This document shows, piece after piece, positions 6,306 through 25,987 of a stretch of DNA of 26,327 nucleotides. Made by a program: the position numbers and the translations under genes. Every line of letters begins with the position of its first letter. Position 1 is the stretch's first letter. This DNA comes from a virus: IMG/VR virus record IMGVR_UViG_3300034522_000023, positions 1 through 26,327 of that record. One strand, written 5' to 3'. The notes beneath the pieces are model-generated. The model did no database searches, was not told the origin of the DNA, and saw only the letters and a list, made by a program, of their open reading frames with translations.

Positions 6306-7283
6306 ATGAAGACTTTCGACGCTTCCCCCCAGGCGCAACTGGGCTTCCTGTTGGGTCAACTGACCTACGTTGAACAGGAAGTCCTGCGCCAGCCGTACCC
6401 AGAAATCAAATACCCGTCGATCCTGACCGTGGACACCTCGGCGCCGGACTACACCGAGTCGATCGCCTTCAAGGTACTCGACTACAAGGGTGAGCCGGCA
6501 CCAATCGGTGACGTTTCCCATGACTTCCCGCTGGCTGAAATTGCTGCCAAGGTCGGCGGTGTTGACGTGGTTCAGGCCGGCCTGGGCTACACCTACACCC
6601 AAATCGAAGTCGGCAAGGCCATGCAAATCGCCAACTCTGTCGGCTTCGGTGGTGCGATCAACCTGTTGGCCGAGAAGCCAATCGCAACCCGCACCCTGAC
6701 CGAGCAGTGGCTGGACCGTGTGGCGTTCGTCGGTGATGCTCGCTGGCCTTCGCTGACCACTGGCGGCCTGCTGAAGTATCCAGGCGTACCAGTCGTTGCT
6801 ACTGGCACCCTGCTGGGCGGCGCGAACAAGACCATCGCCCAGATCCTGGCCGCTGGTGGCGAGACCGCTGCAAACGAGATCCTGACCCTGCTGAACAACG
6901 CGATCCTGCGTGTTTACGCTACTCAGACCAACTCGATTTTCCGCCCGACTCACATCCTGCTGCCGCTGGTTGAATACGGCCTGTTGACCACCTTCCGAAT
7001 CCCGAACACCTCGGAAACGCTGGTCAGCTACCTCGAGCGCGTGCTGAACATCAAGATTGAGCCAATCCTGCAGGCGTCCACCGCCGGCGCTGGTGGCGGT
7101 AATCGCATGATGGTCTACACCAAAAACGCCCAGTTCGCCAAGTTCCACCTGCCAATGCCTTACACGCTGAACGCGCCGATCCCGTCTCACGGCGGCCTGC
7201 GCTTCGAAGCCGCTGGTGTGGTGCGCACTGCTGGTACTGAGCTCAGAATCCCGCAAAGTCATTTATATGTAGATAACGTATAA
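6306..7283 (+). CDS. Major capsid protein, DUF2184 family
   Basis: A 325-residue protein beginning MKTFDASPQAQLGFLLGQ; AAGGATC lies 7-13 bases before the start. The body matches the DUF2184 HK97-fold capsid family: FVGDARWPSLTTGGLLKYPG in the middle and YLERVLNIKIEPI later. It forms the icosahedral shell. Codon use is highly biased to C/G third positions until about 7240; the last 10 codons (PQSHLYVDNV) switch to A/T-ending codons (CAT TTA TAT GTA GAT AAC GTA TAA). That end lies directly against the inserted endonuclease gene, and a copy of HLYVD in normal phage codons is found at 8034-8048 beyond it. I infer that this 3' end was replaced when the endonuclease arrived. Confidence 0.9.
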   Translation: MKTFDASPQAQLGFLLGQLTYVEQEVLRQPYPEIKYPSILTVDTSAPDYTESIAFKVLDYKGEPAPIGDVSHDFPLAEIAAKVGGVDVVQAGLGYTYTQIEVGKAMQIANSVGFGGAINLLAEKPIATRTLTEQWLDRVAFVGDARWPSLTTGGLLKYPGVPVVATGTLLGGANKTIAQILAAGGETAANEILTLLNNAILRVYATQTNSIFRPTHILLPLVEYGLLTTFRIPNTSETLVSYLERVLNIKIEPILQASTAGAGGGNRMMVYTKNAQFAKFHLPMPYTLNAPIPSHGGLRFEAAGVVRTAGTELRIPQSHLYVDNV

Positions 7284-7299
7284 ACGACTGAGCGGATTT

Positions 7300-7325
7300 A
7301 AGCCCGCTTATTGCGGGCTTTCTTT
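7300..7325 (+). terminator. Terminator after the major capsid gene
   Basis: AAGCCCGC at 7300-7307 pairs perfectly with GCGGGCTT at 7313-7320 around a 5-base loop, followed by TCTTT. It lies 17 bases after the capsid stop, and the convergent endonuclease gene ends in its loop (stop complement at 7308-7310). It could cut readthrough from the capsid gene into the antisense of the endonuclease gene; downstream head and tail genes then need readthrough or another promoter. Confidence 0.8.
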
Positions 7326-8009
7326 AGACCCTTTTGCCATGTTTTCTTCTTTCCAGAGTGGTTGCAAGTTAGGGAGTGCGTGTATATCTAGGGTCTCAAG
7401 GTTTCCTTCTCGCACAAAAGAGGATACGGGGCGAACGTGATCTATTTCCCATTCGCCGTAGTTATCCCATGACATGCCGTCCTTAAATAGGGACTCCATA
7501 TGTGACTTGAATTCTTCTCTGGAATATCCGAGAGCGGCAATCTTGAAGTCATCGTTCTTGATCTTCTTTAGTCGCTTTATGCTGGCTCGTATTGCATAGG
7601 ATAAAGCCATTTTCTCAGGGTTGTTCTTCCGGTAAAGATCCTGCATGGCCTTTACCTTTTCTGGGTTTTTGCTTTTCCAGTCCTTAGACCATGCATACAT
7701 TTTTTTCCTTCCCTCCGTGGTCGCGAATCGCTTTTTCCAGTTGGCGGACGAGGCTTCATTTGTTTTCTTTCTGAATTCAGGGTCGGCGTGATAGCGACGA
7801 AGATTGTTTTCTCTGCATATCTTCCTTTGCTTTTCTAGGTACTCAGGATTGTTCGCTCTTTCATTGGCTGCCCATTCTGATGCGCAAGTAACGCAGGCAT
7901 AGCTGCTTACGCGCCGGTCAGAAACATGACCGTTTGGGCACTCTTTTCCGCTGAAGTAGTACTTGAGGCCAGTAGCCTTGGCTTCTTTTCGGGAAATTAT
8001 CTCTTTCAT
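7308..8009 (-). CDS. HNH homing endonuclease, free-standing
   Basis: A 233-residue protein beginning MKEIISRKEAKATGLKYYFS. The start at 8009 follows AAAGGAG, a near-perfect ribosome binding site with a 6-base gap; an ATG nine codons upstream (8036) lacks one. Residues 24-42 hold a zinc-binding pattern (CPNGH then YACVTC; Cys24, His28, Cys39, Cys42). A long basic helical region (about 60-170) probably binds DNA. Residues 186-225 hold the HNH nuclease: EWEIDHVRPVSSF with Asp190-His191, LPNLQPLW, and KEENMAKGSK ending the metal-binding finger. The gene lies opposite to all neighbours and is A/T-rich with many AAA, TTT and AGG-type codons. Such genes spread by cutting copies of the phage genome that lack them. 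Confidence 0.85.
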   Translation of the reverse strand: MKEIISRKEAKATGLKYYFSGKECPNGHVSDRRVSSYACVTCASEWAANERANNPEYLEKQRKICRENNLRRYHADPEFRKKTNEASSANWKKRFATTEGRKKMYAWSKDWKSKNPEKVKAMQDLYRKNNPEKMALSYAIRASIKRLKKIKNDDFKIAALGYSREEFKSHMESLFKDGMSWDNYGEWEIDHVRPVSSFVREGNLETLDIHALPNLQPLWKEENMAKGSKESPQ

Positions 8010-8030
8010 TGTCGCTCCTTTGAAATGGAA

Positions 8031-8057
8031 GATCACCTTTATGTGGACGGACTATAC
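8031..8057 (+). pseudogene. Displaced remnant of the original capsid 3' end
   Basis: The nine codons GAT CAC CTT TAT GTG GAC GGA CTA TAC read DHLYVDGLY, matching SHLYVDNV-stop at the current capsid C-terminus, with every shared residue except Tyr using a different codon. The remnant lies immediately after the endonuclease gene and immediately before the ATG of the next gene, which is where the capsid gene would have ended before the insertion. The last codon TAC differs by one base from TAA, so the old stop has probably decayed. The match is short, so the case rests on five identical residues plus exact position. Confidence 0.65.
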
Positions 8058-8228
8058 ATGGCAACGCTCACGAACACCAGCCCCAACCCGATAGTTCTAC
8101 CGAATCGCACGATCCAGCCCGGCGAGGTCATCACTGACTTCGACGACAAGGAAGCCGACAAGCTGAAAGACGACCTGTTCGTCAAGGCTGGCTGGCTGAA
8201 GATCGAGTTCAAGGCGAAAGCCAAGTAA
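8058..8228 (+). CDS. Small head-region protein, unidentified
   Basis: A 56-residue protein beginning MATLTNTSPNPIVLPNRTIQPGEVI, with a Lys-rich end (IEFKAKAK). The N-terminal half looks like a small beta domain, the middle (DFDDKEADKLKDDLFVKAGW) a helix that could interact with another protein. Small proteins of this sort are common between the capsid and neck genes of myophages; I do not know a function. ATG 8058 is preferred (GGACGG at 8045-8050 upstream), but the frame is open back to ATG 8025, and that longer product would carry the capsid remnant at its N-terminus. A terminator follows at 8236. Confidence 0.7.
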   Translation: MATLTNTSPNPIVLPNRTIQPGEVITDFDDKEADKLKDDLFVKAGWLKIEFKAKAK

Positions 8229-8235
8229 TACCGAC

Positions 8236-8262
8236 AGCCCCTCCTAACCCGAGGGGCTTTTG
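8236..8262 (+). terminator. Terminator-shaped hairpin between head and neck genes
   Basis: AGCCCCTC at 8236-8243 pairs perfectly with GAGGGGCT at 8251-8258 around a 7-base loop, followed by TTT and GC. It lies 7 bases after one gene and 19 before the next co-directional gene, so it is either an attenuator within the late operon or is normally read through. Confidence 0.75.
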
Positions 8263-8280
8263 CATTCTGGAGTCTGACCC

Positions 8281-8718
8281 GTGGCTGAACTGACCATTGA
8301 AGTGACGCCGGCGATCATTGCGGACTTCCGAGCGTTCTACGAAGAATTTTCTGACAGTGCTATTTGGTCTGATACCAAGATCACCAAAGCGCTGTACATC
8401 GCACGCGGCGAGTTTGGCGGCTGCGCGCACTGGGGCGACTACAAGCCCTATTCATTCTTCCAGCGAGGCTGGTTCGCCCTGGCGGCGCACTACCTGACCT
8501 GGAACAAGGCTACATCTGATGCCACCGGTGCTGATGGCAGCGCCTCGACGCCGTACGCACAGGCAAGCAAGTCGGTCCGTGATGAGTCGGTGTCCTACGC
8601 CATCCCGGCGGCGAATGCCAGTCTGACGGTGTGGGAAGCATCCCTGGCCCTGACGCCATACGGCCTTGAGTACCTGCACCTGCGCTCTCGGGCTGCTATG
8701 GGAGCGATCTGCGTATGA
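8281..8718 (+). CDS. Head-tail connector protein, DUF4054
   Basis: A 145-residue protein starting with GTG (TGGAGTC at 8268-8274 upstream). The sequence fits the DUF4054 family: FRAFYEEFSDSAIWSDTKI and ARGEFGGCAHWGDYK near the N-terminus, FQRGWFALAAHYLTW in the middle, and a C-terminal LTPYGLEYLHLRSRAAMG. These helical proteins bind under the portal as the first connector ring and link the head to the tail neck. The stop overlaps the next start (ATGA at 8715), which suggests coupled translation. GTG is the only plausible start near the ribosome binding site. Confidence 0.8.
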   Translation: MAELTIEVTPAIIADFRAFYEEFSDSAIWSDTKITKALYIARGEFGGCAHWGDYKPYSFFQRGWFALAAHYLTWNKATSDATGADGSASTPYAQASKSVRDESVSYAIPAANASLTVWEASLALTPYGLEYLHLRSRAAMGAICV

Positions 8719-24010: not shown

Positions 24011-25987
24011 TCAGTGATCAAAATCAGTCCGTGTGGATAATTTATTTTTTAGAGTCGATCCAATAGATTCAATTAGGGCTGGCACTATTTGCTTGCTGAC
24101 GCGCATAGATCCGGCGATTGATAGATGCACTAAATCTGAATACATCAGCTCTCCATCCTGAAACTTACGACATGTCCCGTCAGGACATAATGAATCTGAC
24201 GGGTCAATATAAAGCGTATCTTTAGCGCTTTCGGCGAAGCTGCGAAGCCTTTTGTTAATCTCAAAGGCTGGCGAGTCTTTCGGTTTGAAATTGAAACTTA
24301 AATCACAAGGCTGTGATATGAAGCGAGGGCGCAGCAAGCATGATGCTGCTGAATGGCTTGAGTTCGTGTAAGGCTGAACGCCAACTATTATAAGTGGGCG
24401 ATTGCCAATTTCCTGGCGAAACTCTCCAAGGTTCTTGATGATGAAATCAATGTAAGCGTTATCGTCTTTAAGAGCTATGTATTTGCTGTTTTTGTCTCCA
24501 AGCATATCTCTATATACGGTCCAGGCGGATGCGTATATTAGCGGCTTGCTATCAGATTTTATTGTGTTAAGCACCTGCTGGTAATGATCCAGGCAGGGAG
24601 TGGCAATAGCGCCGTTTTCTATTTTTGTATAGTTGGTTGACAGATAACATCCCTGTCTAACAAGTGTCGCCACTTGAATGTTTTCAGGTGCGAGATAGTG
24701 GTCCAGACCGCTGGCGTATTGCAAGGCGAAGCTATCGCCCACCAGATACGCGTCAGGCTCGCTCTTTTTTGCACCTAATTTTGCGAAGTTATCGAACGGG
24801 TAACCGCCATAATTCTTGGTGTGAAAGTTCGCCGGGTCATCCGTAATACTTTTATAGGCTTGTGGTGTTCTGAAGCTATAGCCTCCAGAAGTTACTGCTT
24901 TGTGAGCTGCAAATGAAATTAAAGAAGCCACGATAATCGTAATGCAAAAACCATAAATTCGTTTTTTGTAGTCCTTCGACTTAAAGGACTTTTCAATAGT
25001 GTGGTGCATGATCGCGCCAATAATAATCGCTATTGCAAGTAAGCAAACTTTCTCGACTGTTTCCATATCTCTGAATATATAGTATTTGTAAAATACAATG
25101 ATTGGCCAATGGACTAGGTAGACGGAATAGGATATTAGCCCGATATACACCACAGGCTTGATACGCAGAGCCTTGCCCAGCCCAGGAGACCGTCCGGCAT
25201 AAATGCACGCCGCCGCACCAAGGCAGGGAACGAGCGCGCGAAGGCCTGGAAACGGGGCAGTCGAGTCAATGAGAAAAGCAGCTGCCACGATAAGTGCCAC
25301 GCCCACCGCAAGAACGCATGACTCGAAAGCTCTTCCTGCGCGGTGGTTGTTGACGAATACCAGCAGCGCGCCAATGGACAATTCAAATACACGAAACGGC
25401 ATCATGAAGTATGCAGCTGATGAATCGTATGAAAGCATCCACTGAGACGCCGCCAGAGACACCACAGTCATTACCGCCAACAGGCCGGCCAGGAATCTCG
25501 GAGATACCTTTAGCGCCGCCCAAACAACGAATGGCCAGACCACATAAAATTGCCATTCGGCCGCCAGCGACCAAGTGTGCAGCAGGGGTTGTGTAAGCGC
25601 GTCAGCATCAAAATATCCTTGGTGCATCCAAAAATAAAAATTAGATGCTGAAAATATGGCGTAGCTACTTGCGCTGGCAAGTGTGCTAAATGAGGCCGGG
25701 TCCATCAGCAGGTATCCGGCGCCCAAGCAAAGAGCGATGGTTGTAAGAAGTGCAGGGTGCAGGCGAAGCAATCGTCTGACGTAAAAGTCAGAGAAGGTGA
25801 ATTGCTTCTTCGAGATTGAGTTTTTTATAACCTCGGTAATTAGAAATCCTGAAATAACAAAAAAAACATCTACTCCTATAAACCCGCCGGGCACGCCAAG
25901 GCCGAAATGGAATAGTAGGACAAGAACAACAGCGATTGCGCGCAGTCCGTCAATGTCGGGTCGATAGCTTGTGTTTTTACTGTGCAT
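24011..25987 (-). CDS. O-antigen acyltransferase, OafA/YrhL type with SGNH domain
   Basis: A 658-residue protein; AAGGGAAG precedes the start at 25987. Residues 1-360 are an acyltransferase-3 domain with about ten membrane helices: RPDIDGLRAIAVVLVLLFH (conserved Arg and His27 in helix 1), then GGFIGVDVFFVISGFLI, FYVRRLLRLHPAL and HTWSLAAEWQFY, all family signatures. Residues about 405-650 are a periplasmic SGNH domain: YLVGDSFALQYASG with Ser419, and SDLVHLS with Asp618 and His621. Fusions of this build acetylate O-antigen or other surface glycans. The gene reads opposite to all phage structural genes except the HNH gene, and is lower in G+C. It sits next to the tailspike, which suggests lysogenic conversion that alters the phage receptor. 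Confidence 0.9.
   Translation of the reverse strand: MHSKNTSYRPDIDGLRAIAVVLVLLFHFGLGVPGGFIGVDVFFVISGFLITEVIKNSISKKQFTFSDFYVRRLLRLHPALLTTIALCLGAGYLLMDPASFSTLASASSYAIFSASNFYFWMHQGYFDADALTQPLLHTWSLAAEWQFYVVWPFVVWAALKVSPRFLAGLLAVMTVVSLAASQWMLSYDSSAAYFMMPFRVFELSIGALLVFVNNHRAGRAFESCVLAVGVALIVAAAFLIDSTAPFPGLRALVPCLGAAACIYAGRSPGLGKALRIKPVVYIGLISYSVYLVHWPIIVFYKYYIFRDMETVEKVCLLAIAIIIGAIMHHTIEKSFKSKDYKKRIYGFCITIIVASLISFAAHKAVTSGGYSFRTPQAYKSITDDPANFHTKNYGGYPFDNFAKLGAKKSEPDAYLVGDSFALQYASGLDHYLAPENIQVATLVRQGCYLSTNYTKIENGAIATPCLDHYQQVLNTIKSDSKPLIYASAWTVYRDMLGDKNSKYIALKDDNAYIDFIIKNLGEFRQEIGNRPLIIVGVQPYTNSSHSAASCLLRPRFISQPCDLSFNFKPKDSPAFEINKRLRSFAESAKDTLYIDPSDSLCPDGTCRKFQDGELMYSDLVHLSIAGSMRVSKQIVPALIESIGSTLKNKLSTRTDFDH

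Follow-up and report, generated by a model that had tools for sequence, protein, structure and literature searches.

The window analysed here is a viral DNA of 26,327 nt (IMG/VR record IMGVR_UViG_3300034522_000023, positions 1 to 26,327), probably from a Pseudomonas phage. At its capsid locus, a gene for an HNH endonuclease lies on the opposite strand between the major capsid gene and the gene that follows it, and the C-terminal codons of the capsid are found on both sides of this HNH gene. The features of the locus are:

6306 to 7283, plus strand: major capsid gene, 325 aa (PF09950 / phrog_264), the host gene of the insertion, ending in ELRIPQSHLYVDNV-stop
7244 to 8105, strand not assigned: putative foreign (imported) tract, left edge sharp, right edge approximate
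7260 to 7283, plus strand: left copy of the capsid C-terminus (functional), in the unusual codons CAT TTA TAT GTA GAT AAC GTA TAA (HLYVDNV-stop)
7300 to 7325, strand not assigned: terminator-like hairpin AAGCCCGC-TTATT-GCGGGCTT followed by TTTCTTT, between the convergent capsid and HNH genes and overlapping the HNH stop
7308 to 8009, minus strand: HNH endonuclease gene, 233 aa (phrog_1035), with an N-terminal Cys/His-rich motif, a helical middle and a C-terminal beta-beta-alpha HNH domain
8015 to 8021, minus strand: ribosome-binding site of the HNH gene, AAAGGAG, as read from the sequence
8034 to 8051, plus strand: right copy of the capsid C-terminus, in the native-style codons CAC CTT TAT GTG GAC GGA (HLYVDG), now outside the capsid reading frame
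8058 to 8228, plus strand: next gene, 56 aa, with its first ~16 codons inside the foreign tract

The capsid has the same length, 325 aa, as in relatives that lack the HNH gene, and its sequence becomes unusual at 7244 (CTC AGA ATC CCG CAA AGT...), slightly upstream of HLYVD. On the far side of the HNH gene, positions 8031-8057 read GAT CAC CTT TAT GTG GAC GGA CTA TAC (DHLYVDGLY), immediately 5' of the ATG at 8058. We compared the capsid tail with the stretch running from the HNH gene to the next ATG and found a match as good in 6 of 20,000 random windows of equal length, which shows that the resemblance is not due to chance. The random pool contains real capsid tails, so that this count and those given below for other carriers are upper bounds. 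A preliminary description of this DNA had noticed a capsid ending in AT-rich codons that is recopied beyond an opposite-strand HNH gene, and both the sequence and the random windows confirm it. The hairpin at 7300-7325 was not listed by our pattern scan; reading the sequence directly, we found it in the second carrier described below (L008) as well. Elsewhere in the window, near its end (24011-25987, minus strand), lies a gene for a 658-residue acyltransferase-like protein, possibly, by its sequence only, a cargo gene modifying surface polysaccharides.

We further examined the HNH protein, which is probably the product of a DNA-cutting selfish gene. In an AlphaFold2 model (mean pLDDT 89.5) residues 187-229 form a strand-strand-helix, and the catalytic residues D190, H191, N214 and N223 are invariant, as in beta-beta-alpha metal HNH enzymes. 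Residues 150-233 are where structural matches to HNH nucleases concentrate, and these matches are weak (Z 3.9 or less); the Pfam HNH model matched 6 of 15 family members, a Foldseek search with the protein returned no significant match, and a PDB sequence search with the HNH profile returned none. Despite the PHROG label 'endonuclease VII', we did not place the protein among the DHHRN enzymes (F-CphI, Endo VII motif), which are likewise free-standing homing enzymes of phages (PMC6083498): its C-terminal domain is HNH-like, with the motif EIDHVRPV, has no Cys in residues 150-233, and contains neither DHDH nor the CX2-4C / CX2C pairs. An intron or intein was also rejected, since the capsid frame ends at a stop of its own and has the length seen in relatives, the HNH gene is antisense, and positions 7100-8300 gave no Rfam match at E<=1, in line with the earlier view that the gene resides here without either.

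Close relatives of the HNH protein are few: two in 399 Pseudomonas genomes (E<=1e-12), one of them in a carrier (L101), one in 369 genomes of the class, and none found in plasmids.

Alleles lacking the HNH gene, and the putative foreign tract

Relatives of the capsid gene were gathered from six loci in bacterial genomes, all Pseudomonas, and 59 loci in viral contigs, giving 61 HNH-less loci with a readable end. The next start lies 5-10 nt past the capsid stop in 60 of these, mostly after GC-rich codons, and in 59 the capsid ends HLYVDG (or HAYVDG) and stop with the next ATG 9 or 10 nt beyond; for the homologue of the 8058 gene the distance is 9 nt. The end of L016, for instance, reads TCC CAC CTG TAC GTC GAC GGT ATC TAA GGAGGCTTC ATG, and that of L005/L013, the loci nearest to the next gene of the window, AGC CAT TTG TAC GTA GAT GGC ATC TAA GGGGGTCGC ATG. 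Where HLYVD is spelled out (27 HNH-less loci), 23 are nearer to the right copy of the window and 3 to the left. The first 15 nt of the left copy, CATTTATATGTAGAT, occur in none of the 61 loci, and under the codon use of the 27 relatives the left string has a probability of ~4e-6 vs 3e-4 for the right copy. Since HNH-less alleles are joined and mostly nearer to the right copy, the HNH gene has been inserted, and of the two copies it is the left that is unusual. The preliminary description is supported in reading the HNH gene as an insertion, and its view of an odd left and a native-like right copy is borne out. A gene present or absent at a fixed site, as seen between the window and L008 on one side and the 61 loci on the other, is what is looked for in a free-standing homing endonuclease.

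The window matches HNH-less relatives through 7243 and is nearly identical to L005/L013 from about 8106; between these points it diverges all the way from the capsid end, across the HNH gene, to the right copy and roughly 16 codons at the start of the 8058 gene. Similar borders are found in L008 and in a further carrier, L127. We read this tract as a whole cassette transferred with short co-converted flanks, and its borders point to horizontal spread of the kind expected from homing. Because both copies sit inside one foreign tract, the right copy probably arrived as part of the element. The earlier proposal that the insertion brought a replacement ending agrees with this, whereas its claim that the old one was left behind is probably not quite right: given a tract running from just after 7243 to about 8105, the right copy is unlikely to derive from the recipient's own capsid gene.

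The second carrier (L008, IMGVR_UViG_3300039209_000001) encodes an HNH protein 71% identical to that of the window. Synonymous sites between the two genes are saturated (pS 0.87) with a pN of 0.165, showing that the HNH gene is under purifying selection. The first 15 nt of the left copy are identical in the two phages. The right copy of L008 reads TCT CAC CTT TAC GTG GAC GGA TAA TAC ATG, with 17 of 18 nt identical over the CAC-GGA stretch, and is followed by a different next gene; its random-window count is 12 in 20,000. That both short copies were kept beside saturated neighbours suggests constraint or repeated exchange. The L008 phage also carries a second open frame (G006:C1:26524-26646; L099/L102) whose resemblance to the HNH protein is confined to the N-terminal Cys/His-rich part.

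The layout in other phages and other essential genes

Three further capsid carriers have the two-copy layout (L008, L106 and L127), two of them in very different phages. L106 is Vibrio phage 209E38-1, reached through HNH relatives in phage records; it has GCG CAT TTT ATT GAT GGC ATT TAA on the left and GCT CAC TAT GTC GAC GGG GTT on the right (2 in 20,000 random windows), and its left copy is no more distant from relatives than its right copy. Vibrio phage 1.038.O, with 97% capsid identity to L106, is without the HNH gene. L127, found in the profile scan, reads TAT TTT GAC GGC GTA TAG on the left and TAC TTC GAC GGG GTT TCA ATG on the right (29 in 20,000). Its close HNH-less relatives mostly end in TAY TTC GAY GGG GTG TAA, like the right copy, for example L206 with TAC TTC GAC GGG GTG TAA GCC ATG. 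In a tree of 91 HNH proteins the window pairs with L008 and L106 with L127; the deeper order of the four capsid carriers is not separated, so that one insertion and several both fit the tree.

Left-type codons also occur in HNH-less phages. L005/L013 use CAT TTG TAC GTA GAT, L122 and L210/L221 have such codons as well (those of L122 and L005/L013 being so only in part), and L221 is identical to the left copy of L127 over 26 of 26 nt. The different spelling may therefore not have been selected. The preliminary description, which expected left-type codons to be confined to carriers, is contradicted in part, not fully, by L005/L013, L221 and L122. Likewise, the left spelling is unusual as it had said, but 'recoded' is too strong a word for codons that these phages already have. 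The left copy may be how a donor phage naturally ends its capsid gene, or may stem from the spread of a resistant allele; the site would be altered either way, and destruction of the cleavage site by the left ending is plausible.

Twelve HNH relatives adjoin a second capsid type (Vibrio phage 138, Klebsiella, PEAT2 and others) and show no C-terminal copy; adjacency of capsid and HNH genes alone is thus not the pattern, and the duplication is not obligatory. Vibrio phage 138 (L104) and CP-T1 (L223), with capsids 97% identical, are such a pair with and without the HNH gene. In L104 the HNH cassette and an RNA motif occupy the gap after the capsid gene, and no copy of the capsid C-terminus is present.

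This motif, a three-way junction of ~50 nt, lies just upstream of many related HNH genes and is not found in the window. Copies are located at L104:4761-4812, L141:468-519, L144:2913-2964 and L128:2921-2972, and in L169, L119, L115, L134, L152, L148 and others; at L208/L209:4237-4288 it precedes an unrelated small gene. Eleven of its 12 pairs changed on both sides, and the strand read is probably that of the HNH gene, because the antisense strand has 0 G-U vs 13 C-A cells. The L141 copy had no Rfam match.

We then compared the C-terminus of host genes, anchored at the stop, with the stretch beyond the HNH neighbour in 172 pairs, taking as threshold the 99.9% level of mismatched pairs (26). Seven pairs exceeded it, including L145 (56), L137/L194 (36), L151 (33) and L101 (30). 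L148 and L182 were added by inspection: L148 has ITGI-stop on both sides, and the L182 record lacks the terminase end. PHROGs identify the host genes as large terminases (L145, L151, L148), a head-morphogenesis gene (L194, with the L194/L137 pair) and a tail terminator (L101). The layout therefore recurs in further phages and essential genes, at capsid, tail-terminator, terminase and head-morphogenesis loci. L145 and L148 have the HNH gene on the host strand, where its frame enters the old terminase ending and uses the stop of that ending (..KVPIIKPMSRMKISGI-stop and ..KTNLITGI-stop). In L101 the left copy is CCG TAC CGT GCC TAT TAA and the right copy, like that of L233, reads TACAGGGCCTACTGATG; all 11 HNH-less Pseudomonas homologues end in PYRAY-stop, with codons mostly like the right copy. 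Across sites the copies range from 4 to 24 residues, and over eight carrier pairs different codons encode 35 of 46 shared residues. A C-terminal copy is frequent in HNH relatives, not universal.

Some candidates were set aside. L150 and L201 had high tail/flank scores in the first scan and fell below the 99.9% null in the stop-anchored one. L193 (2569-4334) was not counted, being an array of two tandem HNH genes that share a C-terminal tail, KPFQPSLAFGGxL, and may have been inserted one after the other, both reading into one old gene end. L176 was left out as borderline, with a score of 28 for EKSFFDE/ERSFFDT: a head-morphogenesis-like gene, so named from sequence only, ends in EKSFFDE-stop and ERSFFDT-stop lies just past the downstream HNH gene, with the three-way-junction motif between the two.

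Proposed mechanism and rival explanations

We think it likely that the window carries a free-standing HNH homing element at the 3' end of the major capsid gene, consisting of a replacement C-terminus and stop, a convergent HNH gene and a native-like second copy, and we infer that it is mobile and protects itself. The HNH protein would cut or nick HNH-less alleles near the H-L-Y-V-D-G codons, and the break would be repaired from the carrier phage, copying the cassette with ~40 nt of capsid and ~50 nt of the next gene. With the left copy in place the capsid would stay complete; the altered codons of this copy and the interruption of the site would jointly make the new allele uncuttable. The right copy would preserve the sequence before the next gene and may act as a right-hand homology arm. 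Besides the left-type codons of HNH-less phages and the twelve HNH relatives without a C-terminal copy, three further results count against this explanation: the predicted ribosome site of the next gene is weaker in the window (-5.5 vs about -12 kcal/mol in relatives), the left copy of L106 is no farther from relatives than its right copy, and among 61+ loci only two close carriers, the window and L008, were found.

The strongest rival, to which we give a serious chance somewhat short of even, is that no recoding was selected: an HNH gene behind the capsid gene of another phage recombined in with a naturally different ending, protection would come from interruption of the site or be absent, and the codon differences are ordinary divergence. 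This accounts well for left-type codons in HNH-less phages, one of them matching the left copy of L127 at 26 of 26 nt, and for a tract that begins in the capsid gene before the HLYVD codons and reaches into the 8058 gene. It fits poorly with 15 identical nt in two carriers whose HNH genes are saturated, a string absent from the HNH-less loci, and with the same pattern at independent sites (35 of 46 codons differing in eight pairs). A doubtful, though possible, alternative is that the right copy is a regulatory leader derived from the capsid end, holding the ribosome site of the next gene or the promoter or 5' leader of the HNH gene. Its conservation between the window and L008 (17 of 18 nt) would agree with such a role, as would the remaining Shine-Dalgarno-like GTGGACGGA or, in L127, GACGGGG, a TGGTCA-17-TATAAT in L127 that reads into the HNH gene across the right copy, and in L101 a next start that overlaps the old stop (TGATG). 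Promoter scans of the four capsid carriers, however, gave nothing consistent, and a leader leaves the second capsid ending unexplained; as a secondary role it is compatible with the homing element proposed above.

A staggered cut with fill-in, as made by a transposon, could have copied ~18 nt that then drifted apart, and the copies are indeed short and flank the insert. We nevertheless rejected such a target-site duplication as very improbable, because the foreign tract extends past the duplicated part, the left copy being foreign from 7244, well upstream of it. Moreover, copy lengths vary from 4 to 24 residues, it is the non-coding right copy that is native-like and the coding left copy that differs, and in L101 the right copy is again nearer to HNH-less homologues. 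Least credible of all is chance resemblance or random mosaicism without homing. Phage late genes do recombine freely, but in each of the four capsid carriers only 2-29 of 20,000 random windows did as well, and seven of 172 pairs lie above the 99.9% null (26), which refutes chance resemblance for the layout, activity aside. Beyond the window, we lean slightly towards a general class of non-splicing phage homing elements in essential late genes (capsid, terminase, tail terminator, head morphogenesis), each with a replacement 3' end of its host gene whose spelling would shield it from the element's own endonuclease and with the old end kept downstream as a recombination arm or as a tail of the endonuclease.

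Related elements and significance

Mobile ORFs with an inserted C-terminus are known from fungal mitochondria (Glomus atp6, atp9, cox2 and nad3; Allomyces macrogynus atp6; PMC3630166). As in the window, an endonuclease ORF lies near the 3' end of an essential gene, with a foreign in-phase C-terminus upstream and the native one downstream, and the differences between the two are mostly synonymous (PMC3630166). The fungal enzymes are of the LAGLIDADG or GIY-YIG type, act in mitochondria and usually bring longer ends (PMC3630166), whereas the phage element has an HNH enzyme, occurs in tailed phages and, in the capsid and tail-terminator cases, lies on the opposite strand. It works alike; with its HNH fold, we did not file it as a member of the fungal class.

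Among phages, the ShiLan-type insertion in actinobacteriophage methylases likewise places an HNH gene inside a host gene with no detectable intron or intein, and the insert opens with 11 residues similar to the 11 beyond the insertion site (PMC11855218). It differs in being read through in the host frame with no internal stop, with the HNH gene out of frame; the account, as far as available to us, does not describe it as replacing a C-terminus. Free-standing homing endonucleases of T4-like and lactococcal phages are also HNH or GIY-YIG enzymes, for which co-conversion of the recipient cleavage sequence is expected; the parts of these reports available to us describe them beside or away from their target and mention no replacement and stranded ending (PMC2988022, PMC12724721). 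Within a limited open full-text literature we found no phage report of a replacement ending with a stranded old one, which is weak evidence of absence.

For a homing gene to reside in an essential gene, an intron or intein is expected to be required. The element in the window appears to occupy such a gene by replacing its end, and makes a simple, testable prediction on which alleles get cut. If cutting is confirmed, a mechanism described mainly in fungal mitochondria would extend to phages, and the layout would help to explain the swapping of short capsid and terminase endings among them.
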